A stretch of DNA of 64,000 bases, from positions 1 to 64,000 of the forward strand of contig CANKUB010000007.1 of NCBI GenBank assembly GCA_947486575.1. Reading direction: 5' to 3'. Positions 6,905 to 56,738 of the stretch are shown here, piece after piece (position 1 is the stretch's first letter; the number at the start of each line of letters is the position of its first letter). Below the pieces are notes generated by a model, which saw only the letters and a program-made list of their open reading frames with translations, was not told the origin of the DNA and searched no databases. Position numbers and translations under genes: made by a program. This stretch comes from Betaproteobacteria bacterium. GTDB taxonomy: Bacteria > Pseudomonadota > Gammaproteobacteria > Burkholderiales > SG8-41.

Positions 6905-7879
6905 ATGATCAGCAAAACGTTGTGCGCAGTAGCTGCGGGACTATCCAGTCTGCTTGCCCTCACCGCGCACGCGGCAGATGCTTATCCCGCACGCCCCATT
7001 CGCATGGTTATCGCCAACGGGCCGGGGTCAGCGGGCGACATTCTTGGCCGTATTGCGTTCATACGCACAGCAGAAATCCTGGGGCAGCCCATCGTTGTCG
7101 ATAACCGGCCAGGTGCGGGCGGCACTATCGGTGTGGAAATCGTTGCGCGCGCCGCGCCCGATGGCTACACGCTGCTGGGCACGTCGTTTGCCACGCTCGC
7201 GGTAGCGCCGCACACCTACAAAAATGTGTCGTACCATCCGGTGAACGACTTCGCGCCAGTGTCGTTGTTCGCCATCACGCAGGCAGGCCTGTGCGTCAAC
7301 GCCGCATTGCCGGTGAAATCCACACGCGAACTCATCGAACTTGCACGTGTGCGTCAGGGCAAACTGCTGATGGCCTCGGCCGGCATTGGCTCCACCAGCC
7401 ATCTCGCCGGTTTGATGTTCACCACCGCAGCTGGCATAGCAGTCACCCACGTGCCATACAAGGGTGGCGGCCCATCCGCTGCGGCCATCGGTGCGGGGGA
7501 AGCGCATTGGGCGCTGGGGCCGCTATCGGCGTATCTCGCAGCCTGGAAAACCGGCCGCGCGCGCTGCATCGCGGTCAGCGGCGAAAAGCGTTCGACCCTA
7601 TTTCCCGACCTGCCGACCATCGCCGAAGGCGGCGTGCCGGGGTTCAAATTCCTCGGATGGAATGGCGTGCTCGCGCCCAAGAACACATCGCGCGCCCTCA
7701 TCGACCGGCTCAACAGCGCGCTGGTGCAGGCACTGAAAACAGCCGAAGTGCGGCAGCTTTACGCTGCACAAGGCGAAGAACCCGCGTGGACCACGCCGGA
7801 GGAATACGCAAAAATAGTCCGTGAAGATTACGAGCGCTATGGCAAGGTGGTGAAAATGGCGGGGGTAAAAGCCGAGTAA
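6905..7879 (+). CDS. TctC-family substrate-binding protein
   Basis: 324 residues with a clear signal peptide (about 1-23, ending THAADA). The first ligand loop is unusual: IANGPGSAGDILGR instead of the common PFAPGGxxD, so the Gly-Gly pair is changed and ligand contacts may differ. The rest is standard: DNRPGAGGTIG, APDGYTLLG, HVPYKGGGPS and a MAGVKAE tail. It is divergent from the bicupin gene and is followed by a 317-base gap, so it is probably a single transcription unit. Confidence 0.9.
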   Translation: MISKTLCAVAAGLSSLLALTAHAADAYPARPIRMVIANGPGSAGDILGRIAFIRTAEILGQPIVVDNRPGAGGTIGVEIVARAAPDGYTLLGTSFATLAVAPHTYKNVSYHPVNDFAPVSLFAITQAGLCVNAALPVKSTRELIELARVRQGKLLMASAGIGSTSHLAGLMFTTAAGIAVTHVPYKGGGPSAAAIGAGEAHWALGPLSAYLAAWKTGRARCIAVSGEKRSTLFPDLPTIAEGGVPGFKFLGWNGVLAPKNTSRALIDRLNSALVQALKTAEVRQLYAAQGEEPAWTTPEEYAKIVREDYERYGKVVKMAGVKAE

Positions 7880-14313: not shown

Positions 14314-15315
14314 GTGTTTTCAAGATTGCCGTGTGTATTGATCGCAAGCCTGATTACGCTGACGGCTGGTGCTGCGCTCGCGCAGCCCAAGGCTGCGTCT
14401 GGTGCCTCTGGTACATCTGGCACCTATCCCACCAAACCCATACGCCTGATCGTACCGTTTTCACCGGGCGGTACCAACGACGTGCTCGCGCGCATGATTG
14501 CGCAGCATCTGACACAGACCTTCGGCCAAAGCGTTATTGTTGATAACCGCGCAGGCGGCGAAGGTCTGATCGGCACCGAAATCGCCGTGAAGGCGCCGCC
14601 CGATGGTTACACGCTGCTGCTGGTGTCGTCTGCTTACGTAATGAATCCCGCCGTACGCAAGATGCCTTACGATTCCATCAAGGCGATGGATTTCATCGCC
14701 AAGCTCGGCGCGAGCTTCACCGTGCTAAGCACCGGGCCGTCGCTGCCGGTAAACAATCTCAAGGATTTGCTGGCCGCTGCGAAAAGCCGGCCGGGCGAAC
14801 TGGTGCTGACCACCTCTGGCGGCTTTCAGTATTTTGCATCGGCACTGTTCGCCAGTCTGTCGAAACACGAATTCAACATCGTGCTCTACAAAGGTGCGGT
14901 GCCTGCCATGATCGATGTCATTGGCGGGCAAGCCCATGTCACCTTTGCCGTGAGCGTACCCGCGCTGCCGCATCTGCGCTCCGGCAAGCTGAAGGGGCTT
15001 GCCACCGGCACCCTGAAACGCACCGAGTTGCTGCCGGATATCCCCACGCTCGACGAATCCGGCATCAAGGGCTATGACGCCTCGAACTGGTATGCCATCG
15101 CAACAGCAGCCGGCACGCCACCAGCGGTCATCGCCAAGCTTCACAACGAAATCGAGCGCTATTTCAAGTTGCCCGAAGTGCAAAAGCAGGTGACAACGTT
15201 GGGCGCCGTGCTCGATCTCAAGTCACCGGAAGAAATGCGCAAGTTCATCCCCGCCGAAATTGCCAAGTGGACCAGGGTGGCTATCGATACGCGCATGCCG
15301 CGCACCGTGGATTAG
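14314..15315 (+). CDS. TctC-family substrate-binding protein
   Basis: 333 residues beginning at GTG with GAGGAG seven bases upstream. Signal peptide to about residue 23, then a low-complexity linker (AASGASGTSGTYP) before the mature domain. The loop motif is VPFSPGGTND, followed by DNRAGGEGLIG and PPDGYTLL. The middle is less typical: the usual HVPYKG is IVLYKGAVPAMIDVIGG, and the tail (IDTRMPRTVD) lacks the common GxKAE ending. It is followed within 17 bases by a second, different TctC gene, so two receptors are made from one message. Confidence 0.9.
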   Translation: MFSRLPCVLIASLITLTAGAALAQPKAASGASGTSGTYPTKPIRLIVPFSPGGTNDVLARMIAQHLTQTFGQSVIVDNRAGGEGLIGTEIAVKAPPDGYTLLLVSSAYVMNPAVRKMPYDSIKAMDFIAKLGASFTVLSTGPSLPVNNLKDLLAAAKSRPGELVLTTSGGFQYFASALFASLSKHEFNIVLYKGAVPAMIDVIGGQAHVTFAVSVPALPHLRSGKLKGLATGTLKRTELLPDIPTLDESGIKGYDASNWYAIATAAGTPPAVIAKLHNEIERYFKLPEVQKQVTTLGAVLDLKSPEEMRKFIPAEIAKWTRVAIDTRMPRTVD

Positions 15316-15332
15316 CGCCAGGAGAGGCCACC

Positions 15333-16313
15333 TTGAGAACCAGAATCGCGCTACCCGTTTTGGCCACTGCTGTTGCAGCCAGCGCTTTCACTCTGGCTGG
15401 CAACGCTGCGGCACAAGCGTGGCCGCAGCGCCCCATCCGCCTGATCATGCCCTTCCCGCCCGGTGGCGCGACAGACGCCAATGCGCGCGCACTGGCAAAA
15501 GAAATGGAAACCTCACTCGGTCAATCGATCATCGTTGACAACCGTAGCGGCGCCAACGGCATTATCGGCAGCGATATCGTGGCCAAGGCCGCACCGGATG
15601 GCTACACCATGATGCACATCTCCGTGGCTTTCGCGATCAACCCCAGCACCTACAAAAAGCTGCCGTTTGACCCGATCCGCGACTTTACGCCGATTACCAA
15701 CCCCATCGTCGGCAACGGGGCGTTGCTGCTGGTGCATCCGTCCGTGCCAGCGCGCACCGTCATCGAATTGATTGCCGTGGCCAAAAAACAGCAACTCGTA
15801 TTCAGCTCGCCAGGTATCGGCAATGTGCTGCATCTGATCAACGAGGCGTTTAACGCGCGCGCGGGCATACGCATGCTGCACGTGCCCTACAAAGGCGCGG
15901 GCCCGGCACTAGTGGCGCTGCTGGGCGCGGAATCCCAGGTGATGGTGGTACCGCCGCTCACCGCCACGACTTACGTGAAGGCCGAGCGGCTGCGTGCGCT
16001 GGCCTACAGCGGCGCAAAGCGTCTGGACACCCTGCCAGATATACCGACCATCAGCGAGGCCGGATTGCCTGGCTTCCAGATTGATACTGGCTGGCATGCG
16101 TGGTTCGCACCGCCGAAAACGCCAGACAGAATCGTCAATCAGATTTACGGCGCGATACAAAAAGCGGTGCAAACGCCGCGAATGCGCGACGTTTTCACGA
16201 CGGCGGGTTACCAGCCGGTAGCCGATCCGCCCGCAGTGTTTCAAAAAAATGTGGCTGCCGATATCAAGCGCTGGGGCGAGATTGTGCGGTCAGCCAATAT
16301 CGCGCCAGAGTAA
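15333..16313 (+). CDS. TctC-family substrate-binding protein
   Basis: 326 residues. The ORF-track start at 15267 lies inside the previous gene. I prefer the TTG at 15333, which has GGAGAGG just upstream and gives a proper signal peptide (LATAVAASAFTLAG, cleaved near NAAAQA). Mature motifs: MPFPPGGATDANARAL, DNRSGANGIIG, APDGYTMM, HVPYKGAGPALVALLG, tail SANIAPE. It is clearly not a duplicate of the preceding TctC gene, since the two differ throughout, so they may bind different acids. Confidence 0.9.
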   Translation: MRTRIALPVLATAVAASAFTLAGNAAAQAWPQRPIRLIMPFPPGGATDANARALAKEMETSLGQSIIVDNRSGANGIIGSDIVAKAAPDGYTMMHISVAFAINPSTYKKLPFDPIRDFTPITNPIVGNGALLLVHPSVPARTVIELIAVAKKQQLVFSSPGIGNVLHLINEAFNARAGIRMLHVPYKGAGPALVALLGAESQVMVVPPLTATTYVKAERLRALAYSGAKRLDTLPDIPTISEAGLPGFQIDTGWHAWFAPPKTPDRIVNQIYGAIQKAVQTPRMRDVFTTAGYQPVADPPAVFQKNVAADIKRWGEIVRSANIAPE

Positions 16314-21482: not shown

Positions 21483-22448
21483 TCACTCCACACGCAACCC
21501 CGATTGCCTCACCGCAGCGCCGTTCTTGTCGTAATCCGCCCGCAGGAAAGCAGCGAATTCCTGCGGGCTATTGCCTACCGGGTCGCTGCCCTGCCCGATC
21601 AAACGCGCGCGTGTTTCGGGCGCTTGCACCACTTGCATGGCTGCTTCGTTAAGCCGCATCACGATCGCGCGCGGCGTTTTAGCGGGCACCAGCAGCCCCA
21701 GCCAGCTTCCGGCCTGAACACCGCGTAGCCCTGTGGCTTCATCCACCGTCGGCACATCGGGTAACAGCGACGAACGTGCCGCGCCAGCTAATGCCAGCGT
21801 GCGCAGCTTGCCGGTTTTGACATGCGGCAGCGCGGGCGGAATCGAATTCAGCATCACGTCCACACGCCCGGCGATCAAATCAATCACCGATTGCGGCGCG
21901 CCCGCGTACGGCACATGCGTGATGTTGATGCCTGCAATGCCTTTGAATATCTCCATGCCGATGTGATTGGCGGTGCCGTTGCCTGCGGTGGAATAGTTTA
22001 ACTTGCCTGGCGCGGCCTTGGCGCGGGCGATTAAATCCCTGGTGCTGGTAATTGGCGATGAGGCATGCGTCAGCAGCAACATGGCGCCGGTGGAAATCAA
22101 GCTCACCGGGATAAAATCTGTCAACGTGTTGTACGGCACCTTGGACATATGCGGCACGATGGTCAGGCACGGCGGGCTGGTCATGAACACGGTGTAGCCG
22201 TCCGGTGTGGCCGTTGCAATCATTTCAGCGGCGATACGCCCGCCTGCACCACCGCGATTGTCGATCACCAATTGCTGGCCAAGCAATGCAGACATGCCCG
22301 GCGTTACGGTGCGAGCGAGTACGTCTGGCGTGCCGCCTGCCGGAACGGATAACACCACGCGGATGGGCTTGTTGGGGTAGGCCTGCGCGACAACAACCTG
22401 CGCCACACCGGCCATGTACGCCGCCATCAATGTGCGCCGGTAACTCAT
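21483..22448 (-). CDS. TctC-family substrate-binding protein
   Basis: 321 residues. The start is the ATG at 22448, which overlaps the stop of the upstream TctC gene as ATGA; the ORF track begins too early. Signal peptide about 1-21 (MAAYMAGVAQVVVAQA). Mature motifs: VLSVPAGGTPDVLART (loop with PAGG), DNRGGAGGRIA, ATPDGYTVF, HVPYAGAPQSVIDLIAG where the usual YKG is YAG, and the tail RQSGLRVE. It is the last gene of a four-gene overlapping operon. Confidence 0.9.
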   Translation of the reverse strand: MSYRRTLMAAYMAGVAQVVVAQAYPNKPIRVVLSVPAGGTPDVLARTVTPGMSALLGQQLVIDNRGGAGGRIAAEMIATATPDGYTVFMTSPPCLTIVPHMSKVPYNTLTDFIPVSLISTGAMLLLTHASSPITSTRDLIARAKAAPGKLNYSTAGNGTANHIGMEIFKGIAGINITHVPYAGAPQSVIDLIAGRVDVMLNSIPPALPHVKTGKLRTLALAGAARSSLLPDVPTVDEATGLRGVQAGSWLGLLVPAKTPRAIVMRLNEAAMQVVQAPETRARLIGQGSDPVGNSPQEFAAFLRADYDKNGAAVRQSGLRVE

Positions 22449-23416
22449 TCCGCACGCATGCCGGAGCTTTTCACCACGGGCCGCCATTGCTCGATCTGCG
22501 CTTTGATGAATGCGCGATACTGCTCCGGCGTGCCCGCTACGATATCCATGGCAAAACCGTTGAGTTTTTCAGCCACGTCTGCGCGCTTTAAAATTTTTGC
22601 GGATTCTTCACTCAGGCGCGTGACGATGGCGGTGGGCGTATTCGCGGGCAGATGCAGTCCGTGAAAATTCAGCGCATCGTAACCCGCCACCACAATGGCA
22701 ATCGGCGGCACGCCGGGCAGATGCGGCGTGGGCTTGGCGCTGGTGACGCCGAGCGCGCGTATCTTGCCCGCCTGCACTTGCGCAATCGCCGTGGACACCG
22801 CCACCATCGCGTATTCCACTTCGCCCGCCAGCACGCCGGTCAACGCAGGGCCGCCGCCTTTATACGGCACGATCACCACTTTAATTTTTGCCAGGCTGTT
22901 CATCCACTCCGCAAACACATGCGACGAGGTGCCGATGCCCTGCGCGCCGAAGCGCAGCGCACCTGGTTTGGCACGCGCCTGATCGGTCAGGCTTTTCATA
23001 CTGGCGAGGGGAGAACCGCTGCTCACAATCAACGCCAGTGGAAACGTCACCCACAGCCCCGCGTGCGCATAATCGCGCTGCGGGTCGTACGGCAGCTTGG
23101 CAAATAACGTGGGGGCAATCGCCATGGTAGAAATCGCGCCAACCAATAAGGTGTAACCATCGGGCTGCGCTTTGGCGACGAGATCAGCGCCGACAATGCC
23201 GCCCGCCGCCGGACGGTTATCCACCACCACTGCCTGACCCAGGCTTTCCGTCAAACGTGCGCCGACAATGCGCGCCAGCGTGTCGGTTGAACCACCAGGT
23301 GCAAATGGCACCACCAGACGCAACGCGCGCTGCGGGAAGGGCTGCGCACTGGCGGCAGATGACAAGGCACACAAAGCCACTAACAGTGCGCCCGATATCG
23401 CTGCGTGCGCTTTCAT
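22445..23416 (-). CDS. TctC-family substrate-binding protein
   Basis: 323 residues from the ATG at 23416, whose A is shared with the TAA stop of the upstream HAD gene. Signal peptide about 1-24 (ISGALLVALCALSSAASA). Motifs: VVPFAPGGSTDTLARI, DNRPAAGGIVG, QPDGYTLLVG, IVPYKGGGPALTGVLAG, tail SSGMRAE. With the next gene it gives the operon two unlike receptors (different loops PAGG versus PGGSTD), so two ligands or one ligand with two affinities are possible. Confidence 0.91.
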   Translation of the reverse strand: MKAHAAISGALLVALCALSSAASAQPFPQRALRLVVPFAPGGSTDTLARIVGARLTESLGQAVVVDNRPAAGGIVGADLVAKAQPDGYTLLVGAISTMAIAPTLFAKLPYDPQRDYAHAGLWVTFPLALIVSSGSPLASMKSLTDQARAKPGALRFGAQGIGTSSHVFAEWMNSLAKIKVVIVPYKGGGPALTGVLAGEVEYAMVAVSTAIAQVQAGKIRALGVTSAKPTPHLPGVPPIAIVVAGYDALNFHGLHLPANTPTAIVTRLSEESAKILKRADVAEKLNGFAMDIVAGTPEQYRAFIKAQIEQWRPVVKSSGMRAE

Positions 23417-24111
23417 TACACGCCCCATAACATTTGTAAGTTCTTAATAGAATCAATTAGATATGAATGATTCTCACTGGCCAGTTTTTCACGTGTATGC
23501 GCGCCCGTTAGCACACCTACACTTACCGCCACGCCTGCGTTATGCGCCGCCTGCAAATCCGAAATGGTGTCACCAACGTTAAGCACATGACGCACGTTTA
23601 TCGTACCCGTCAGCTCCATCGCACGAAAAATCATGTACGGCGCAGGGCGGCCCTGGGGCACATCATCACCGCAGATTACGGCGGCGGCCACATCGCGCCA
23701 GCGCAAAGCATCCAACAGAATTTCTGTGATGTCACGATCAAAGCCAGTGTTGAGGGCGAGTTTAATGTCGTGCGCGCGCAACCACTCGAACGTTTCAACA
23801 GCGCCCACCACCGGCTCGACTTCGCGCGTGAACACACGCTGCAGGTGATTTTTAAACGAGGCGTAAACCACTTCTACGCGCGCTGCATCGCTGCCGTACT
23901 CATTTGCGTGCCTCGGCGCAATCAGGCGCGCAATCGCCTCGCGCTTGGATGCGCCACGCACGACGCTGATTTGTTCTGCCGAGGCTTCAACGCCGTGATC
24001 GGCGAGCGCTGCGGTAAAAGCACGCGCGACTTCGCCGCTGTCCTTGACGGTGGTGCCCGCCATATCGGACACCACCAGCCGTATCGAACGAAAACTAGCC
24101 TGCAAACTCAA
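23416..24111 (-). CDS. Phosphonatase-like HAD hydrolase
   Basis: 231 residues. The HAD nucleophile motif is SDMAGTTVKD near residue 15, the form seen in phosphonoacetaldehyde hydrolase (PhnX) and its relatives. VRGASKREAIARL near 50 carries a Lys close to where PhnX has its Schiff-base Lys, but this needs alignment. LALNTGFDRDI near 117 (motif II), ICGDDVPQGRPAPYM near 142 and NVGDTISDLQAA near 178 (motif IV Asp) complete the fold. It may cleave a C-P bond or a phosphate ester. Overlaps of 4 and 1 bases with its neighbours place it in one operon with a Vgb-like protein and two TctC receptors. No other phn gene is seen. Confidence 0.85.
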   Translation of the reverse strand: MSLQASFRSIRLVVSDMAGTTVKDSGEVARAFTAALADHGVEASAEQISVVRGASKREAIARLIAPRHANEYGSDAARVEVVYASFKNHLQRVFTREVEPVVGAVETFEWLRAHDIKLALNTGFDRDITEILLDALRWRDVAAAVICGDDVPQGRPAPYMIFRAMELTGTINVRHVLNVGDTISDLQAAHNAGVAVSVGVLTGAHTREKLASENHSYLIDSIKNLQMLWGV

Positions 24112-36402: not shown

Positions 36403-36534
36403 GGTTTCTTGCGAGTTAAAAACCCAAAATCTGATAACGCAGTAACCAAACCATCGGTTAACGCGTCATTGTAACGGTTCTGGTTATACTCACCGCTGCT
36501 CATCCGATTGTTGCCGCGCGCCACGCCTTTCACC

Positions 36535-37272
36535 ATGCCGCCACTTGAAGTCCTGATTTTTGCGCCGCTAGTCGTGCTGATTGCCTATTTGATTTTCGGC
36601 ATATCCGGGTTCGGCTCTACGCTGATTGCGGTGCCGGTGCTGGCACACCTGATGCCGCTGAAATTCGTCATCCCCGTGGTGGTCTTGCTTGATTGTGTCA
36701 GCGCCATCAGCATGGGCGTCAAGCTGCGTGCGGATGTGTGGAAGAGCGAATTCATCCCCATGTTGCCGTTCCTGCTGGTGGGCCTGTTTATCGGTGCGTT
36801 TGTTTTGATGAATGTGTCTGCACAGTGGCTACTGCTGATATTGGGTGGATTTGTACTGCTATTCGGCATGAACTACCTGATCGACCGAAAATCACGCATC
36901 AGGCTGCCGCGCTGGGCTGTGGCACCCATTGGCGTCTTCGCGGGCACTACATCGTCTGCATTTGGTGTCGGCGGCCCGCTCTATGTGTTTTATTTTACCG
37001 CGCGCGGTGCAACGCCCGAACAAATACGCGCCACCGTGCCCGCAGTATTTTCATTTACCACCGTCGCGCGCATCGCCATCTTCGCCAGCGTGGGCTTGTT
37101 CAACACGCAAATGGTCATTGCCGCCGCTGCATTGTTGCCGGTGATGGCACTGGGGCTGTGGTGCGGCCACCGGCTGCACGGACGGCTCTCGCGCGAACAG
37201 GCGATACGCATTATTGGCGGATTGCTGCTGTTAAGTGGCACTTCACTCATCGTGCGCGCGGTTGCAAGCTGA
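36535..37272 (+). CDS. TSUP (TauE/SafE) family membrane permease
   Basis: 245 residues from the ATG at 36535; a TTG nine codons earlier is possible. About seven to eight membrane segments cover the whole length (for example FAPLVVLIAYLIFGISGFG at the start, MLPFLLVGLFIGAFVLM near 75 and WLLLILGGFVLLFGM near 98). The GFGSTLIAVP near residue 20 and GTTSSAFGVGGPLYVFY near 137 are the paired repeats of the TauE/SafE fold. TSUP proteins move sulfite, sulfonates, sulfolactate or similar anions out of or into the cell. A sulfite dehydrogenase is 16 kb away, so no operon link exists. Confidence 0.9.
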   Translation: MPPLEVLIFAPLVVLIAYLIFGISGFGSTLIAVPVLAHLMPLKFVIPVVVLLDCVSAISMGVKLRADVWKSEFIPMLPFLLVGLFIGAFVLMNVSAQWLLLILGGFVLLFGMNYLIDRKSRIRLPRWAVAPIGVFAGTTSSAFGVGGPLYVFYFTARGATPEQIRATVPAVFSFTTVARIAIFASVGLFNTQMVIAAAALLPVMALGLWCGHRLHGRLSREQAIRIIGGLLLLSGTSLIVRAVAS

Positions 37273-37301: not shown

Positions 37302-38396
37302 CTAAGTCGTCGATCCGCCCTGTATCAGCAATTGTACAAAGCGCCGGATATTCACGTTACTTTGCGTACTCACGGATGTAAATTCAATACCGGCAAGGCG
37401 GCGGCCGTCTCGCTCAATCATGCGTAATACTCTTGCATACAGGTCTGTTGCTGCGGTACCTGCGATCGCCAGATTCAGATCGAGCTTGATATCAGCTTGC
37501 GCCGGCACCTCGATATCCAGCAAGGCCAGCACACCGTTGTAGCTGATATCCAGAATCGTGCCGCTATACATTTCAGGCGCGACTGATTTGCCCTTTAGCA
37601 GTTGAAATTTAAAGGAAATATTGGTTTCCACGCGCGGGCTTTTGCGGATTTCCTGACGCGGCACAATCTTGTTCGCCGACGGTATGCCCAACACTTCATA
37701 GAGATTGACCGGATTTTTCTTACCCTTGACGTACACATCCGTCGGCAATGCCGCCGTGACGAAATCGCGCACGAGCATAAAAGTGGCTTCGCTCACCAGA
37801 ATTTGCCCGCGTAAACTGTAGGCCTCAATGCGTGAAGCGAGATTCACTTCTTCGCCGATCACGGTGTACTCAGCGTAAATTTCCGAACCGAGTACGCCGG
37901 CCATCACGGTGCCGGTGTTGATACCGATACCCATGTTTAATTCCGGCATGCCATTCTTTTTATGCTGCTTGTTGATCTCAAACAGCGCGAGCTGCATATC
38001 CACCGCGCAGGAAACCGCACGGATGCTATCGTCGTCGCGGCTCGTCGGCGCACCGAACAAGACCATGATCGAATCACCGATGAACTTATCGACCGTGCCG
38101 CCGTGGTCAAAGGCGATTTCACTCATTTTGACCAGATAGCGGTTTAATACTTCCAGCAGTTCAGGTGCCGGATGGGATTCCAGAATCGCGGTAAATCCGC
38201 GCAAATCCGTAAATAGAATGGTAACAACGCGCGATGAAAATGTTTCGCCGTTGTTCAGACCCATCGCGCTATGGACCGCATCCTTCAATGCCAGTACAAG
38301 TTGTTGGCGCACGGCGGGCGGCAGCGGCGCGCCCTTTTCCCGCTCGATCAGGGTTTGTATGCTTTGCAGCATTAACGAGGGTGAGGGCGTTTTCAT
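37302..38396 (-). CDS. Class III adenylate cyclase with C-terminal PilZ domain
   Basis: 364 residues from the ATG at 38396. Residues about 55-240 form a class III cyclase: metal Asp64 in LFTDLRGFT and Asp108 in KFIGDSIM, purine-selecting Lys104 and Thr178 (in YTVIGEEVN), and transition-state Asn185 and Arg189. The Lys/Thr pair points to ATP, so cAMP. Residues about 250-360 form a PilZ domain with both c-di-GMP contacts: RKSPR (251-255, RxxxR) and DISYNG (283-288, D-x-S-x-x-G). The protein is soluble. It is therefore a candidate for c-di-GMP control of cAMP synthesis. It stands alone, convergent with the TSUP gene. Confidence 0.88.
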   Translation of the reverse strand: MKTPSPSLMLQSIQTLIEREKGAPLPPAVRQQLVLALKDAVHSAMGLNNGETFSSRVVTILFTDLRGFTAILESHPAPELLEVLNRYLVKMSEIAFDHGGTVDKFIGDSIMVLFGAPTSRDDDSIRAVSCAVDMQLALFEINKQHKKNGMPELNMGIGINTGTVMAGVLGSEIYAEYTVIGEEVNLASRIEAYSLRGQILVSEATFMLVRDFVTAALPTDVYVKGKKNPVNLYEVLGIPSANKIVPRQEIRKSPRVETNISFKFQLLKGKSVAPEMYSGTILDISYNGVLALLDIEVPAQADIKLDLNLAIAGTAATDLYARVLRMIERDGRRLAGIEFTSVSTQSNVNIRRFVQLLIQGGSTT

Positions 38397-38450: not shown

Positions 38451-39641
38451 CTACACCCGCGTGCTGCGCAATGGCGCGAGGTATTCACCGATGCGCCGCA
38501 CCCCCTCGCGCAGCCGCTCTACCGGGCGCGTATAGGCAAAGCGCACATGTTCGCACGCACGATGCGCGCCAAAATCGATGCCGGGTGTGATGGCTACACC
38601 CGCTTTTTCGAGCATATCCAGCGCAAAAGCGTGACTGTCGTGGGTGAAGCGTGAGCAATCGGCATAGACGTAAAACGCGCCGGGCGGCGTGTGTGGAATA
38701 TCAAATCCCAGCTCGCGCAACGCGGGCACCAGATAGTCACGGCGCCTGCGAAATTCCGCGCGGCGCGCTTCGCAGATGGCGAGTGTTTCCGGCTGAAAAG
38801 CCACTAGTGCAGCAAGTTGCGCGGGCGTGGGCGCAGAAAGGTAAATATTTTGTGACAGTTTATCCAGCTCGCGAATGTAGCGCTGTGGCACCACCATCCA
38901 GCCCAGCCGCCAGCCTGTCATATTAAAATACTTTGAAAAGCTATTGATGACGAAAACATTCTCACCCGCATCCACGGCAGTATGCGTGATGCCTTCGTAG
39001 ACTAGGCCATGATAGATTTCATCGACGATCAACGCGCCGCCACGCCCCTGCGCGAAAGCCGCCATCGCGGCGATCTCCGTTTGCGTAATCAGTGTGCCGG
39101 TCGGATTAGAAGGCGTCGCAACCAGCGCCGCAACGGTACGCGCACCCCAATGTTGTTCGATCAACGCCTGCGTCAATTGATACTGCGTGGCGGGGCCGAC
39201 AGGGATGCCGACTGCCTCACCCTCCATCATGCGTACGAAGTGCCGGTTAGCAGGATAGCCAGGGTCTGCCATCAGCACCTGATCGCCCGGATTCACCAGT
39301 GCGGCTATCGCCAGCAACAGCGCGCCGGATGAACCGGAGGTAATCACCACCCGCGAGGCATCCAGCGCAACGCCGTAGCGTGTCTGGTAAAAGCCCGCTA
39401 TGGCCTCGCGCAACTCAGGTATGCCCAATGCGGGCGTGTAAAACAACTCGCCGTGTTCCAGCGCGCGGATGCCCGCCTCGCACACCGGGCGTGGTGTTGG
39501 AAAATCCGGTTCGCCGATCTCCATATGAACGATGTCGCGCCCCTGCGCTTCCAGCGCCCTGGCGTGTGCCAGCAGCTCCATCACATGAAAAGGCTCGATC
39601 CCGCGCATGCGGTGCGCGAGCGGAGAAACGGATGGCGTCAC
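38451..39641 (-). CDS. Class I/II pyridoxal-phosphate aminotransferase
   Basis: 396 residues. The PLP Lys is in VINSFSKYFNMTGWRLGW near residue 230. The cofactor is also held by ATPSNPTGT near 170 (Asn) and DEIYHGL near 200 (Asp, Tyr), and the C-terminal Arg is in VRFAYTRPVERL near 370. MRGIEPFHVMELLARA-like start with MEIGEPDFPTP near 42 is usual for aspartate/alanine-type aminotransferases (AlaA/AAT I fold). It lies 51 bases from the DoxX gene and may share its message. The amino-acid partner is not determinable; the Lrp regulator and 2-oxoacid dehydrogenase 2 kb away hint at amino-acid use. Confidence 0.92.
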   Translation of the reverse strand: MTPSVSPLAHRMRGIEPFHVMELLAHARALEAQGRDIVHMEIGEPDFPTPRPVCEAGIRALEHGELFYTPALGIPELREAIAGFYQTRYGVALDASRVVITSGSSGALLLAIAALVNPGDQVLMADPGYPANRHFVRMMEGEAVGIPVGPATQYQLTQALIEQHWGARTVAALVATPSNPTGTLITQTEIAAMAAFAQGRGGALIVDEIYHGLVYEGITHTAVDAGENVFVINSFSKYFNMTGWRLGWMVVPQRYIRELDKLSQNIYLSAPTPAQLAALVAFQPETLAICEARRAEFRRRRDYLVPALRELGFDIPHTPPGAFYVYADCSRFTHDSHAFALDMLEKAGVAITPGIDFGAHRACEHVRFAYTRPVERLREGVRRIGEYLAPLRSTRV

Positions 39642-45259: not shown

Positions 45260-46255
45260 CTAAAACACCGACCGCTGTGTCAGCTTCGCTATCTTCGCCA
45301 CCCGTGCCCATTTAATCAGCTCGCTGCTGATGTGCGCCGCCATTTGATCGGGCGTGTTGCCGATGGGATCCATGCCCATGCTCAGCAGCCGCGTGCGCGC
45401 CTCGGGCATCTTCAAGAATTTTGCGATCTCGCCATTGAGCCGTTCTATGTTCGCGCGCAGCGTGCCACCGGGGGCAATCACGCCGTACCAACCGGTCACG
45501 TCGTAACCCGGCACACCGGCTTCCGCTACAGTGGGCGTGTCGGGCATGGTGTGCCAGCGTGTTCCGCCCGTCACCGCCAGCGCGCGCAGCCGGCCGGATT
45601 TGATATGCGGTGCAGCGAGGCCCATCGGGCTGAACATCATTTCAACCTGTCCGCCCACAACTTCGGTCATGGCAGGCGCACCGCCTTTGTAGGCAATGAG
45701 GTGCATATCAATGCCAGTCATCGATTTAAACAACTCGCCTGCCAGATGGATGGTGTCGCCCACGCCGGAACCAGCAAAGTTCAACTGCCCCGGCCGCGCT
45801 TTGGCCAGCGCGATCAGTTCCTTGATGGAATTCGCGGGCACGCGCGAGTTCACCACCACTACGAAGTTGCTCGCCGCAAGCACAGTCACCGGCGCAAAAT
45901 CTTTGGCCAGGCTGTAGGGCAGATTGGTATAGACATTCGGATGGATAGTGGCGCCAGAGCTGATCATGCCGATGGTGTGGCCGTCCGCAGGCGCGCGGGC
46001 AACGATTTCTGTGCCGATGATGCTGTCAGCACCCGCGCGATTGTCGACGGTTACCGGCACGCCGAGGCTTTCAGTCAGCCGCACGCCGATCAACCGCGCC
46101 AGTGTGTCATTGGGGCCGCCTGCTGCAAAGCCCACGACAAAACGGATCGCTTTTGCCGGGTAAGGCGTTGCAGGCGTTTGTGCAGCGGCATTGAGAAATG
46201 CCATGCCCGGCAGAGCGGCGATCAGCAATGGAACTTTTTGCATGAAGAATTGCAT
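45260..46255 (-). CDS. TctC-family substrate-binding protein
   Basis: 331 residues from the ATG at 46255; an ATG four codons later is also possible, while the ORF-track start at 46372 adds sequence inside the previous gene. Signal peptide about 5-26 (LIAALPGMAFLNAAAQ). Loop: VVGFAAGGPNDTLAR (AAGG type), DNRAGADSIIG, APADGHTIG in place of APDGYT, and LIAYKGGAPAMTEVVGG. Last gene of the eight-gene minus-strand run, 17 bases after the SnoaL-like gene. Confidence 0.9.
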   Translation of the reverse strand: MQFFMQKVPLLIAALPGMAFLNAAAQTPATPYPAKAIRFVVGFAAGGPNDTLARLIGVRLTESLGVPVTVDNRAGADSIIGTEIVARAPADGHTIGMISSGATIHPNVYTNLPYSLAKDFAPVTVLAASNFVVVVNSRVPANSIKELIALAKARPGQLNFAGSGVGDTIHLAGELFKSMTGIDMHLIAYKGGAPAMTEVVGGQVEMMFSPMGLAAPHIKSGRLRALAVTGGTRWHTMPDTPTVAEAGVPGYDVTGWYGVIAPGGTLRANIERLNGEIAKFLKMPEARTRLLSMGMDPIGNTPDQMAAHISSELIKWARVAKIAKLTQRSVF

Positions 46256-46272
46256 AAACGATTCCCGATAAA

Positions 46273-46767
46273 TTAAGGCCAAGCCATCAACCGCTGCGCC
46301 AGCGCGGCAGCAAAGGTAGCTGAAGCTGCTGTACTCCAATCCAGCGTGTGCCGCCGCTCGCTGATGCGCCACTCACCATTCACACGGCGCAGTCGGTCAA
46401 GATATCGCAGGCTGCGCATGGCGATCTGCTCCGCCGGCTTGTCCGGTCGCACCAGAAACGCAATGGCGTAGGTTTCGGTCTCCGCAACATCTTTCTCCAG
46501 CACGTGAATAGTGAAATTACCCATGAAATGCGTGGATGCCAGCAGCTCGCCCGCAGCCAGCCGCCGGAACGTATTCATGGAGGCCATCAGATTTTCAATG
46601 CCATGCAGCGGCGAGCGGCCTTCGTAATAGGCCTTCACGTCTTCGGTGAAGCAGCTGCGCACCTGATCAGGAAGCCCGCGATCCAGACCCTGGTAGTAGC
46701 GCGTGAGCACTTCATGAATGGCGGTTTTATCCAGCAGGTACTGCAAATCGACTTGTGGCCGTGGCAT
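46273..46767 (-). CDS. SnoaL-like (NTF2-fold) protein
   Basis: 164 residues from the ATG at 46767; an ATG three codons earlier is equally possible. The opening LQYLLDKTAIHEVLTRYYQGLDRGLPDQVRSCFTEDVKAYYEG is the helix pair and cone typical of SnoaL-like and ketosteroid-isomerase-like folds, and the end MRSLRYLDRLRRVNGEWRISERRHTLDW is the closing sheet. Such proteins are small isomerases, dehydratases or aldolases, or subunits of dioxygenases. No catalytic residues can be assigned. It lies between two TctC genes in the alternating run. Confidence 0.83.
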   Translation of the reverse strand: MPRPQVDLQYLLDKTAIHEVLTRYYQGLDRGLPDQVRSCFTEDVKAYYEGRSPLHGIENLMASMNTFRRLAAGELLASTHFMGNFTIHVLEKDVAETETYAIAFLVRPDKPAEQIAMRSLRYLDRLRRVNGEWRISERRHTLDWSTAASATFAAALAQRLMAWP

Positions 46768-46845: not shown

Positions 46846-47823
46846 CTACTCTGCCTTGATGCCAGCATCGTCCAGCACTTTGGCCCAGCGCGTGTATTCG
46901 GATTTGATGTAAGCGGTGAACTGCGCCGGAGAACTACTCGATTGCAATTCAACACCCTGATTCGCAAAGCGGCTGCGGATATCGGGCGTTTGCACGAACT
47001 TCACGATCTCACCGTGCACACGCGTCAGGATTTCCAGCGGTGTGCCCGCAGGCGCCAGCATGCCATTGAAAATACTCGCCTGAAAGCCCGGCACGATTTC
47101 ACTGATAGCGGGCAAGTCTGGCAGCAGCGCACTGCGCACAGGGCTGGTAATCCCCAGCGCGCGCAACTTGCCGCCGCGCGCGTGCGCCAGCGAGGTACTG
47201 AGATTGTCGAACTTTACCGGCACCTGTCCGCCCAGCAAGTCAATGATGGCTGGGCCGTCACCATTGTACGGAATGCGCATGATGCGCACGCCCGCCATGC
47301 GGCCAAACAGCTCCAGCGCCAGATGCGACCCGGAACCGTTGCCGGACGTCGCGCCGTTCAGTTCGCCGGGGCGTGATTTCGCCAGTGCAATAAATTCCTT
47401 CAGATTTTTTGCGGGCAGCGACGGATGCACCACCAGCATTTGCGGCAAGGTGGCAATCAGGCTCACGCCCACAAAATCGCGCACCGGGTCGTAGGGCGGG
47501 TTGCGCATCATTTTCGCTGCCACCAGCGCACTTTGCGCCACCATGATGAAGGTATAACCATCCGGCGCCGCGCGCGCCACGCTGCCAAAGCCTATGGTGC
47601 TGTTGGCACCCGGACGGTTCTCAACAATCATACGCTGGCCCAAGCCTTCGCTGACCTTGTCGGCAACCGAGCGCCCCATCAGATCGAGATTGCCGCCGGG
47701 TTGCACAGAGACGATCAGGCGTACCGGTCTGGCGGGATAGGCCTGCGCCTGCGCTTCAGGCATGACGCTGTTCATCACCGTCAATGCACTGACCGCGGCA
47801 AAAAGCATTGATGTTCGCTTCAC
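46846..47823 (-). CDS. TctC-family substrate-binding protein
   Basis: 325 residues, signal peptide about 1-26 (AAVSALTVMNSVMPEAQAQA). Loop: IVSVQPGGNLDLMGRS, an uncommon form with QPGGNLD instead of APGGxxD. Then ENRPGANSTIG, APDGYTFI, RIPYNGDGPAIIDLLGG where YKG is YNG, and tail DAGIKAE. The altered loop and YNG point to a different ligand from its neighbours. It follows the alpha/beta hydrolase by 21 bases. Confidence 0.9.
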   Translation of the reverse strand: MKRTSMLFAAVSALTVMNSVMPEAQAQAYPARPVRLIVSVQPGGNLDLMGRSVADKVSEGLGQRMIVENRPGANSTIGFGSVARAAPDGYTFIMVAQSALVAAKMMRNPPYDPVRDFVGVSLIATLPQMLVVHPSLPAKNLKEFIALAKSRPGELNGATSGNGSGSHLALELFGRMAGVRIMRIPYNGDGPAIIDLLGGQVPVKFDNLSTSLAHARGGKLRALGITSPVRSALLPDLPAISEIVPGFQASIFNGMLAPAGTPLEILTRVHGEIVKFVQTPDIRSRFANQGVELQSSSSPAQFTAYIKSEYTRWAKVLDDAGIKAE

Positions 47824-48685: not shown

Positions 48686-49672
48686 TCAATCTGCTCTGGC
48701 GCCGGCGATTTTCACCACCTTCGCCCATTTGGCGATTTCGCTCCTGATGTAGGCTGCAAATACGTTCGGCGGGATACCACCGGGCGTTGTGCCTTCGGCG
48801 ATGAGACGCTGCGATACCTCAGGTGACAGCAGCGCCTTGGCCACTTCGCCATGCAGCCGGTTGACAATGACGAGCGGCGTGCCCGCAGGTACCACCACGC
48901 CCTGCCATGACACCGCCTCGAAACCCGGCACGCCCGATTCGGCGATTGTTGGAATATCCGGGGCCACGGGCAAGCGCTGTTCGCTGGTCATCGCCAGCGC
49001 GCGTATGCGTCCGGCGCGCGCCTGCGGCAACGCCACCTGCACCTGAATGCAGCTCATCTGTACCTCTCCCGCAATCAGCGCGGTCAGTTGTTCCGCCGCA
49101 CCTTTGTAAGGCACGTGCGTCATGTTCGCGCCCGTCATCGTCTTGAACAATTCCTGCGAGAGGTGATTGCCACCGCCGCTGCCTGCCGACGCATAATTGA
49201 TTTTGCTGGCAGGTGTTTTGGCCAGCGCGATAAAGTCCTTGATGCTGGCAGCAGGAAGCGCGGGGTTAACCGCGAACAGGTAAGGGCTCGATGTAGTGGT
49301 AGTCACCGGCAAAAAGTCACGCAGCGGATCGTAAGGCAGCTTGCTGTGCATGCTGACGTTGGTCGCGAGCGTGCTGATACTGCCCGCAAACAGCGTGTAG
49401 CCATCCGGCGGTGCTTTCGCCACCAGCACGGCGGCGACAATACCGGCGCCCCCTGCGCGATTGTCCACCACTACCTGCTGACCCATGCTTTCGGTCATCT
49501 TGCGGCTCAAGGTGCGGGCAATCATGTCGTTGCCGCCACCCGCACCAAAGCCGACGACGAATCGAATGGGTTTGGTGGGATAGGGCTGACCCGCGCCGGT
49601 TGCAGCTGTCTGCGCCTGCGCAAGACCCGCCATCAACGCACTCGCCAAAAAGATGTAACGTATTGTTTTCAT
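48686..49672 (-). CDS. TctC-family substrate-binding protein
   Basis: 328 residues, signal peptide about 1-20 (YIFLASALMAGLAQAQ). Loop: VVGFGAGGGNDMIARTL (GAGGGND), DNRAGGAGIVA, APPDGYTLF, HVPYKGAAEQLTALIAG and a tail IAGARAD. Ten bases from the iron alcohol dehydrogenase upstream and one base from the hydrolase downstream. The loop has AGG in common with the receptor at 45260 but differs elsewhere. Confidence 0.91.
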   Translation of the reverse strand: MKTIRYIFLASALMAGLAQAQTAATGAGQPYPTKPIRFVVGFGAGGGNDMIARTLSRKMTESMGQQVVVDNRAGGAGIVAAVLVAKAPPDGYTLFAGSISTLATNVSMHSKLPYDPLRDFLPVTTTTSSPYLFAVNPALPAASIKDFIALAKTPASKINYASAGSGGGNHLSQELFKTMTGANMTHVPYKGAAEQLTALIAGEVQMSCIQVQVALPQARAGRIRALAMTSEQRLPVAPDIPTIAESGVPGFEAVSWQGVVVPAGTPLVIVNRLHGEVAKALLSPEVSQRLIAEGTTPGGIPPNVFAAYIRSEIAKWAKVVKIAGARAD

Positions 49673-50862: not shown

Positions 50863-51831
50863 TCAGTTGGAGACTTCGAATTTTACGGTCTTTGCCAGCT
50901 TGGACCAGCGCGTGAGTTCCGCTTTGAGGTAGGTTGCCATGTGCGCCGGGCTGCTGCCCACAGGTTCGCCACCGACAGTTTTCATGCGTTCACGCACCTC
51001 CGGCTTTTGCACGGCATCAACGATAGCGCCATTCAAACGATTGATCGCGGAAGCGGGGGTTCCGTGCGGTACAAAGGCTCCGAGCCATGTATTGACCTCA
51101 AAACCGGGCAACGCGGATTCGGCGATGGTTGGTATATCCGGCAGGGTACTGCTGCGCTTGAGGCTGCTGACCGCCAGCGCACGCACCCGGCCGGAAGTAA
51201 TCGCGCCGTACGCAGCGGGGATGGTTGCAAACACAAAGTTCAACCGCCCGCTCATCAGGTCTGTCATAAAGGCGCCAGCACTTTTGTAAGGCACGTGCGA
51301 CAACTGCAATCCCGCTGCATTGGCAAACATCTCGGTTACCAAGTGATTACCCGAGCCGTTGCCGACTGAGCCATAGTTGAGTACACCGGGCTTCGCCCTG
51401 GCGAGCGCAATCAGGTCGTTGGCGGATTTAACGGCCACGCTGGGATGCACCACGAGCACGGCAGGCACAACGGCGATCAGGCTCACCGGCGCGAAATCCT
51501 TCTCGGCATCGTACGGCAATTTCCTGAAAAGGATCGGGTTCGACGCAAGATTGGATGCGGAAATCAGCAGCGTATAACCATCCGCCTGCGCCTTCGCCAC
51601 CAGTGTGAATGCAGGCAATCCCGCGCCACCGCCACGATTGTCGATCACCAGCGACTGGCCCAGATTGGCCGATATGCCCGGCGCAATAATCCGCGCCAGC
51701 ACGTCCGCACTGCCGCCTACGCCATAAGGGATCACCGCGCGCAGGGGGCGTTCCGGAAAAGCATGGGCGCCAGTCACGCTGCCAGCAAAGACCAGCGCTG
51801 CAGGGGCTAAAGCAGCGCGCCTCAGCACCAC
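50863..51831 (-). CDS. TctC-family substrate-binding protein
   Basis: 322 residues. The start is one of two adjacent GTG codons at 51831 and 51828, overlapping the end of the NIPSNAP gene by 7 to 10 bases; the ORF-track start at 51912 is inside that gene. Signal peptide follows (LRRAALAPAALVFAGSVTGAHA). Loop: VIPYGVGGSADVLARI, an unusual YGVGG in place of FxPGG. DNRGGGAGLPA, HVPYKSAGAFMTDLMSG (YKS instead of YKG) and the tail VKFEVSN are also divergent. It is the most atypical receptor of the run. Confidence 0.87.
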   Translation of the reverse strand: MVLRRAALAPAALVFAGSVTGAHAFPERPLRAVIPYGVGGSADVLARIIAPGISANLGQSLVIDNRGGGAGLPAFTLVAKAQADGYTLLISASNLASNPILFRKLPYDAEKDFAPVSLIAVVPAVLVVHPSVAVKSANDLIALARAKPGVLNYGSVGNGSGNHLVTEMFANAAGLQLSHVPYKSAGAFMTDLMSGRLNFVFATIPAAYGAITSGRVRALAVSSLKRSSTLPDIPTIAESALPGFEVNTWLGAFVPHGTPASAINRLNGAIVDAVQKPEVRERMKTVGGEPVGSSPAHMATYLKAELTRWSKLAKTVKFEVSN

Positions 51832-52442
51832 GGGGAAAAAGCCACCGGTGTCATCAGGCTCGATTGAATGTCCTCCACCATCGTGCCGTGCTGCTTCAGG
51901 AACGCGCGCCACTCGGCGCTTTGCATGATCTGTGCTGGCGTCTGCGTGGCGGCGTGCGCGGATAAATGCACGACTTCATTCACGTCGCCGCTGTTGCCCG
52001 TCCATACGGCAACCGTTGCACCCCACAAGGGCGCAGGCAATTCATCCTGCAAAAGCCGGGCAAAGGCTGCAGTCTTGCCGGCCCGTGTGCGAAAAATCCG
52101 CAGGTGATACAGATTATCCGGCAGCTTCGGCAGATTAGGTTCCGCCAACGGCGTCAGCAGGCGCGACACCTGCCGCCGCATCAGCGGTTGCGAGTGCGGC
52201 AGATACTCGTTGCGCCACACATCCTGCTCTTGCAATTTGGCGCGCAACACTTCGCGCGTGGTAACCGACTCATGCTCCCACAGGTTAAATACACCATTCA
52301 CTGCGCCGATTTCGCACGCCCAAAAGCCCAGCAACTTGCCGTAGTCGTCACCACGAAACGGCACCGCCACCTTGCCCGCATGATTGATGTAATCGTCCAA
52401 ATGTCCTGCCGCGATTTCGTAGAAGCGCAGCTCATGCAGCAT
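51822..52442 (-). CDS. NIPSNAP family protein
   Basis: 206 residues. The opening MLHELRFYEIAAGHLDDYINH and the WACEIGAVNGVFNLWEHES near 43 are typical of the NIPSNAP alpha-beta fold. A second, weaker copy starts near 110 (YHLRIFRTRAGKTAAFARLL), so the protein holds two NIPSNAP modules. Such proteins are often found in catabolic operons of unknown function. It is the first gene of the eight-gene run and overlaps the TctC gene that follows. The promoter should lie in the 217 bases upstream, shared with the divergent gene at 52660. Confidence 0.87.
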   Translation of the reverse strand: MLHELRFYEIAAGHLDDYINHAGKVAVPFRGDDYGKLLGFWACEIGAVNGVFNLWEHESVTTREVLRAKLQEQDVWRNEYLPHSQPLMRRQVSRLLTPLAEPNLPKLPDNLYHLRIFRTRAGKTAAFARLLQDELPAPLWGATVAVWTGNSGDVNEVVHLSAHAATQTPAQIMQSAEWRAFLKQHGTMVEDIQSSLMTPVAFSPWC

Positions 52443-55616: not shown

Positions 55617-56609
55617 TTATTCAAGCGTAACGCCAGCGGCTTTGATAATTTTTCCCCAGGTAACGGTTTCTTCGCGGATGAACGCGGCAAACTGTTCCGG
55701 CGTGGTTGAACGCGTTTCAGCACCCTGTGACATCAAGCGCTCTTTGGTATCCGGCGCGTCCAGCGATTTCGCCAGCGCTGCGTGCAATTTCGCCACGATG
55801 TCTTTGGGCGTCGCTGCCGCAACCACCACACCGTACCAATTGTCGGCACGCACGCTGGGGTAGCCCGCCTCAGTCATGGTGGGCACATTCGGCAGTGTGG
55901 CTTGCCGCTTTGCGGTAGCGACCGCCAGCGCGCGCATTTTGCCCGCCTTCACGTGCGGCAGCAGAACCGGCACATCAAGTATGGTGAACAATACATGCCC
56001 GCCCAGAAGATCAATCACCGCCGGTGCGGCACCCTTGTATGGCACATGGATAATATCTATGCCCGCCGCCACGCGCAGTGACTCCACTGCCAGATGCGGC
56101 ATGCCGCCGCTGCCGGTGGAACCATAAACCAGCTGTTTGGGTTTTGCCTTGGCCAGCGCGACCAGATCCCTGGTGGTTTGCACAGGTAGCGACGGATGCA
56201 CCGCCAGCATTTCCGGCACGGTGACAGCCAGCGTCACTGGCGCCAGGTCGCGGGTAATATCAATCGGCAGCTTGGCATATAAATTGGGCGCAAAGGTCAA
56301 CACGCCGGTGCCCGCAAAATAGATTGCGTAGCCATCGGCTGGCGCGGTACGCGCAATGTGTTCGGCGGCGATCATGCCGCTGACGCCGACACGGTTATCG
56401 ATGACGACCTGCTGGCCGATGACTTCAGTCATTTTTTGCGCAATGGTGCGCGCAAAAAAATCTGCCGGCCCCCCCGCCGGAAAACCGACCAGCATGCGTA
56501 TCGGCTTGGTGGGGAAATTTGCGCCGGGTGCTTGCGCGAACGCGGCCATGGCACAAGGCAGGGTTACGGCAACAGCAAAACTGCGCATAAAATTACGCAT
56601 TAGACGCAT
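55617..56609 (-). CDS. TctC-family substrate-binding protein
   Basis: 330 residues from the ATG at 56609, which has a textbook ribosome site (GGAGGAG); the ORF-track start at 56735 is wrong. Signal peptide about 5-26 (SFAVAVTLPCAMAAFAQA). Loop: LVGFPAGGPADFFART (PAGG type), DNRVGVSGMIA, APADGYAIYF instead of APDGYT, HVPYKGAAPAVIDLLGGH and tail AAGVTLE. It precedes the enolase-superfamily enzyme on the same strand; together they would take up and convert an acid sugar or similar compound. Confidence 0.92.
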   Translation of the reverse strand: MRLMRNFMRSFAVAVTLPCAMAAFAQAPGANFPTKPIRMLVGFPAGGPADFFARTIAQKMTEVIGQQVVIDNRVGVSGMIAAEHIARTAPADGYAIYFAGTGVLTFAPNLYAKLPIDITRDLAPVTLAVTVPEMLAVHPSLPVQTTRDLVALAKAKPKQLVYGSTGSGGMPHLAVESLRVAAGIDIIHVPYKGAAPAVIDLLGGHVLFTILDVPVLLPHVKAGKMRALAVATAKRQATLPNVPTMTEAGYPSVRADNWYGVVVAAATPKDIVAKLHAALAKSLDAPDTKERLMSQGAETRSTTPEQFAAFIREETVTWGKIIKAAGVTLE

Positions 56610-56738
56610 CAACTCCTCCGATACTGTGTTTTCATTTTTCAAACGACCCCAAGCGCGGGGGCAGCAAACATACCATACCCGTTGCGTTGCATCGATCCCG
56701 AACCCACGCTGGCGGGGCAGTGTTTTGTTACACAATGC

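Follow-up and report, generated by a model that had tools for sequence, protein, structure and literature searches.

The window analysed here, a stretch of 64,000 nucleotides (positions 1 to 64,000 of contig CANKUB010000007.1, assembly GCA_947486575.1) from a Betaproteobacteria bacterium, encodes on its minus strand, at 37302..38396, a protein of 364 residues plus stop (ATG at 38396-38394, a start common to the orthologues) that joins a class III nucleotide cyclase domain to a PilZ domain. The fusion protein is probably a soluble class III adenylate cyclase, the output of which would be set by cyclic di-GMP (c-di-GMP) bound at the cyclase-PilZ junction of a homodimer, and, on the evidence of its sequence and those of its relatives, it is a well-supported direct candidate for a link between cyclic AMP (cAMP) and c-di-GMP signalling. 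Such a candidacy had been put forward in an initial annotation, and is supported, as a candidacy, by the ATP-type substrate pair, by the invariance of the catalytic residues, by the conservation of the ligand motifs, by the PilZ fold matches and by the GGDEF and CRP-like proteins of the same genome. The strand was missing from that annotation, as was the existence of a sister family in which a comparable domain is without the c-di-GMP motifs; read on the plus strand, the corresponding frame of 37302-38396 is broken by stops.

The order of the two domains agrees with the annotated one, both being recognized by Pfam over the cut-off. The cyclase domain (residues 57-229, 37710..38228; this and all other features of the gene are on the minus strand) matches PF00211 (Guanylate_cyc) with 111.6 bits against a cut-off of 21.9 (E 4.3e-32). 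It contains the metal-binding aspartates D64 (38205..38207) and D108 (38073..38075) and the transition-state pair N185 (37842..37844) and R189 (37830..37832), the two pairs expected of a class III cyclase, along with the substrate-specifying residues K104 (38085..38087) and T178 (37863..37865). All six are found in the translation at the numbers previously assigned to them, and each is invariant in the 23 motif-bearing members of the clade described below. Lysine at the first substrate-specifying position is the adenylate determinant and glutamate the guanylate determinant (PMC4215837), and K104 with T178, the latter a class IIIb-type threonine, makes up the Lys plus Asp/Thr pair of class III adenylate cyclases, that is, an ATP-type pair.

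The PilZ domain (residues 250-354, 37335..37649) is defined by a match to PF07238 (35.3 bits, cut-off 22.5, E 1.5e-8), by a predicted barrel and by fold matches. Both c-di-GMP motifs that had been read in it are present, namely RKSPR at residues 251-255 (37632..37646), which corresponds to RxxxR, and DISYNG at residues 283-288 (37533..37550), which corresponds to [D/N]xSxxG. Among the 23 members R251, R255 and G288 are invariant, D283 is Asp in 22 and Asn in one, and S285 is kept in 18. Approximately 12 residues separate the cyclase domain from the start of the RxxxR motif; counted from where the Pfam match ends, the distance is 22 residues. The N-terminal 54 residues (38235..38396) are predicted, with low confidence, to form helices at 6-21 and 27-45; they are the least conserved part of the protein (nonsynonymous divergence, dN, 0.19-0.35 among P0001, the protein of the window, and L017 and L018) and probably act as a dimerizing or cyclase-transducing element. 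Pfam detects no domain in the fusion protein besides cyclase and PilZ and no separate N-terminal sensor; in particular, it finds no receiver domain in the 54-residue N-terminus, as a response-regulator cyclase would have, and no YcgR N-terminal domain, as in YcgR-type flagellar brakes, the partner of the PilZ domain being a cyclase. No transmembrane segment is apparent (the highest 19-residue Kyte-Doolittle mean is 1.46), so that the description of the protein as soluble is reasonable.

Structure prediction supports the assignment of the C-terminal domain independently of the Pfam match. The AlphaFold2 model of the PilZ part alone (mean predicted local distance difference test score, pLDDT, 74) is a six-stranded barrel followed by a C-terminal helix, and in a Foldseek search of the PDB all of its best matches were PilZ structures, including BcsA, YcgR, VCA0042 and Alg44, several of them as c-di-GMP complexes. 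The Foldseek template modelling scores were moderate (0.5-0.66), which can be expected when a model is built from few sequences. The PilZ profile, run against the sequences of the PDB, gave no match, and the fold search alone succeeded.

Conservation of the residues on which both activities would depend is high. D64, K104, D108, T178, N185, R189, R251, R255, D283 and G288 are all invariant in 15 family rows sharing 49-83% identity, and the six cyclase residues with R251, R255 and G288 remain so across the 23 members. Of the 110 positions of the PilZ stretch, only 14 are unchanged in 22 or all 23 members. These 14 include four of the five motif positions, an excess of near-invariant motif positions over general PilZ conservation (hypergeometric 8e-4) that, the rows being related, serves as a guide only. 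When P0001 is compared with its two closest orthologues, dN in the PilZ domain is approximately 0.1 versus a synonymous divergence (dS) of approximately 1.2-1.4, and in neither domain does the pairwise dN/dS ratio exceed approximately 0.1 wherever dS, which is near saturation, can be estimated. Judged from these ratios, purifying selection acts on both domains, and is as strong on PilZ as on the cyclase. On this ground, and because many genomes have kept the fusion, the association of the two domains is taken to be more than a chance event.

The search for the same domain order in other genomes, suggested in the initial annotation, found full-length orthologues in the family, in the order and in further orders. 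Of 74 genomes from the same family, 15 carry one, and in another the gene is split over two contigs; orthologues are also present in three more genomes of the order, spread over two families, in four genomes of other gammaproteobacterial families, to which three genomes from one of those genera are added, and in one further carrier elsewhere in the phylum, which is assembled as one contig. Seven matches in the genome collection are homologues of the whole or most of the fusion protein; plasmid records gave no full-length homologue. In the source genome (5.35 Mb in 282 contigs, 98% complete) there are eight class III cyclase matches, and of these only the fusion has an alignment that extends over the PilZ part. 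Some of the sequences call for comment in their own right. In the orthologue of G065 (L019, 1501-2589), one of the 15 of the family, an in-frame TGA stands in place of the codon for Cys130 of the other orthologues, and L004, another cyclase of the source genome, has one in-frame TAG, each being either a pseudogene or an assembly error. The protein of L014, a record titled Singulisphaera (Planctomycetota), nests in the betaproteobacterial clade with 67% identity, and the title or the binning is probably wrong.

In a tree of cyclase domains the 23 motif-bearing proteins form one clade (support 100/99), with a neighbouring clade (96/84) of related cyclases. This tree, the root of which is uncertain, gives no direction of change. 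The neighbouring clade includes longer cyclases with receiver, CHASE2 or HAMP domains, found by family-profile searches (L040, L041, L082, L084, L086, L087 and L098-L109). These sister proteins also have a cyclase followed by a PilZ homologue and differ from the fusion in that their C-terminal domain, unrecognized by Pfam, has neither RxxxR nor [D/N]xSxxG. Profile-profile comparison with hhalign nonetheless aligned seven such domains to the motif-bearing PilZ domain with a probability of 98% (E 2e-13). The substrate-specifying pair differs as well, being Lys and Thr in 23 of 23 motif-bearing proteins and Glu with Gly, Ala or Ser in the sister forms, almost without exception (Glu-Asp in one), which by comparison of residues corresponds to guanylate cyclases, Cya2 among them (PMC4215837). 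An unannotated, motif-less domain homologous to PilZ follows guanylate-cyclase-like domains in several lineages. In four proteins (L096, L100, L102 and L104) a receiver-cyclase with the motif-less PilZ-like domain is followed by a calcineurin-like phosphoesterase, identified by Pfam in L096 and by similar sequence in the other three; proteins of this type possibly combine a cyclase and a cyclic-nucleotide phosphodiesterase. The neighbouring clade also contains tandem forms (L092-L095 and L097, from one family of the phylum) in which the motif-less domain is followed by a canonical PilZ domain (DFSLDG and RxxxR). Like the fusion, they carry a cyclase and a canonical PilZ domain in one protein, but theirs is a second, additional domain, the substrate pair is Asn-Thr, and they fall in a clade separate from that of the fusion (100/99); they apparently represent a separate route to c-di-GMP sensing.

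From these data a mechanism may be proposed. The protein would form a homodimer, the two subunits being kept together by their N-terminal helices and cyclase domains, and would use ATP as the substrate and make cAMP. The binding site for c-di-GMP would be at the contact between RxxxR, just past the cyclase, and the [D/N]xSxxG turn of the barrel, and, given how close RxxxR is to the cyclase, ligand binding would have to reorganize the linker leaving it. The bound ligand would fix the arrangement of PilZ barrel and linker, shifting the barrel against the cyclase dimer and changing the rate of cAMP synthesis, and the cAMP formed would act on CRP-type proteins of the same genome. Activation is somewhat favoured over inhibition because in Cya2, a related guanylate cyclase, a C-terminal extension of 118 residues stimulates the cyclase: very little activity is left once the extension is removed, and its presence changes the dynamics of both linker and transducer element (PMC5995499). 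With regard to the cellular setting, the genome encodes approximately 19 GGDEF domains, five PilZ matches and 14 cNMP-binding (cyclic nucleotide) matches, one of the cNMP-binding proteins being CRP-like with a cAMP-type cassette, FGEMGILDDQPRSA. Since both GGDEF domains and CRP-like proteins are encoded, c-di-GMP and cAMP signalling are probably both available in the host.

Several observations weigh against c-di-GMP control of the cyclase. S285 is replaced in five of the 23 members, by Gly in four and by Ala in one; PlpA has the PilZ motif residues but is reported not to bind c-di-GMP (PMC8316039); the full-length AlphaFold prediction, built from six sequences, is poor (mean pLDDT 46.7) except for the PilZ part; the distribution of the fusion is patchy; and neither a c-di-GMP enzyme nor a cAMP effector adjoins the gene. 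As to the serine, both PilZ domains of Myxococcus xanthus PixB are without it, yet c-di-GMP was bound in vitro (PMC8316039), and variants with Gly in its place may, by analogy, still bind the ligand. That some motif-bearing PilZ domains do not bind c-di-GMP (PMC8316039) is consistent with a different explanation, namely that the protein is an active adenylate cyclase in which PilZ does not sense c-di-GMP and is a structural or protein-docking module that stabilizes or activates the cyclase, as is presumably the case in the sister clade, where the homologous domain has neither motif, and in line with Cya2, the extension of which is needed for activity and has no known ligand (PMC5995499). This explanation is possible, though on balance doubtful, for it leaves unaccounted for the fixity of R251, R255, D/N283 and G288 in 23 members that diverge down to approximately 44% identity.

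It is also conceivable, but improbable, that c-di-GMP is bound and the output is mainly not cAMP, PilZ serving to localize or dock the receptor while the cyclase is controlled otherwise, for example by bicarbonate. Class IIIb cyclases with Thr are known to respond to bicarbonate, T178 is a residue of that type, and the variable N-terminal segment could take another input; however, Pfam finds no separate sensor domain, and an RxxxR placed directly at the end of the cyclase is a poor site for an unconnected module. The nature of the product must also be considered, since the nearest solved relatives of the cyclase domain are Cya2 and CyaB, the best-scoring one is the guanylate cyclase Cya2, and the sister clade carries guanylate-cyclase-like residues. 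Nevertheless, cyclic GMP rather than cAMP is a very unlikely product: K104 and T178 are ATP-type and invariant in the clade, with Lys and not Glu at position 104 in all 23 members, whereas in guanylate cyclases the first position is Glu, and Cya2 has the Glu-Gly pair (PMC4215837). Finally, an assembly in 282 contigs could in principle contain a mis-assembly or a fortuitous in-frame joining of two genes. The chance that the fusion is such an artefact is negligible, as independent assemblies share both the fusion and its flanking genes, and full-length copies in the single-contig genomes G428 and G860 refute mis-assembly. Control of an adenylate cyclase by c-di-GMP is the reading preferred here.

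The genes flanking the fusion are a class I/II aminotransferase upstream (38451..39641, also on the minus strand, at a distance of 54 bases) and a convergent TauE/SafE-type transporter downstream (36508..37272, plus strand). An operon with a signalling partner was considered and rejected, neither neighbour having a signalling role. The two flanking genes are conserved in the genus and in one neighbouring genus; distant members have other neighbours, so that the fusion gene is independent of its local context. Elsewhere, the window contains ten genes for TctC-type periplasmic receptors of the tripartite tricarboxylate transporter family (E 1e-48 to 1e-75), a dense expansion, at 6905-7879, 14314-15315, 15267-16313, 21483-22487, 22445-23428, 45260-46372, 46846-47823, 48686-49672, 50863-51912 and 55617-56735.

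Comparison with better known systems shows that the cyclase and PilZ domains are each familiar, and that their combination is backed, as far as homology searches reveal, by a conserved and widely spread family. The cyclase part resembles class III cyclases such as Cya2 and CyaB (PDB 2w01 and 3r5g) in the metal-binding Asp pair and the Asn-Arg transition-state pair. Cya2 of Synechocystis also continues C-terminally, with an extension that stimulates its cyclase and that may, from its size and place, be a motif-less PilZ-like domain. Unlike Cya2, with its guanylate pair and CHASE2 input, the fusion has the Lys-Thr pair and a PilZ domain bearing the c-di-GMP motifs, and is without an N-terminal sensor domain. 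The PilZ part is like that of the receptors YcgR, BcsA, VCA0042 and Alg44 in having RxxxR, [D/N]xSxxG and the six-stranded barrel with its C-terminal helix, and differs in that the fusion partner is a predicted cAMP-making enzyme, with no YcgR-N, cellulose synthase or motor-binding part. Bd1971, a cAMP-sensing EAL phosphodiesterase of Bdellovibrio (PMC6717892), also links the two messengers in one protein but in the opposite direction, since it senses cAMP and degrades c-di-GMP, while the fusion would sense c-di-GMP and make cAMP. No description of a cyclase-PilZ fusion or of a c-di-GMP-controlled adenylate cyclase was found in the literature searched, most subscription journals being outside it. 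The corresponding Pfam architecture is probably already present in domain databases.

Cross-regulation between cAMP and c-di-GMP is usually reported to take place via transcription or separate effectors. If the proposal made here is true, one messenger would directly set the synthesis of the other, the shortest possible link between the two and one that can be tested with a single protein, with the motif-less sister family providing natural negative controls. The same sister family may also explain why the uncharacterized C-terminal extension of Cya2, used in optogenetic cyclases, matters for activity.
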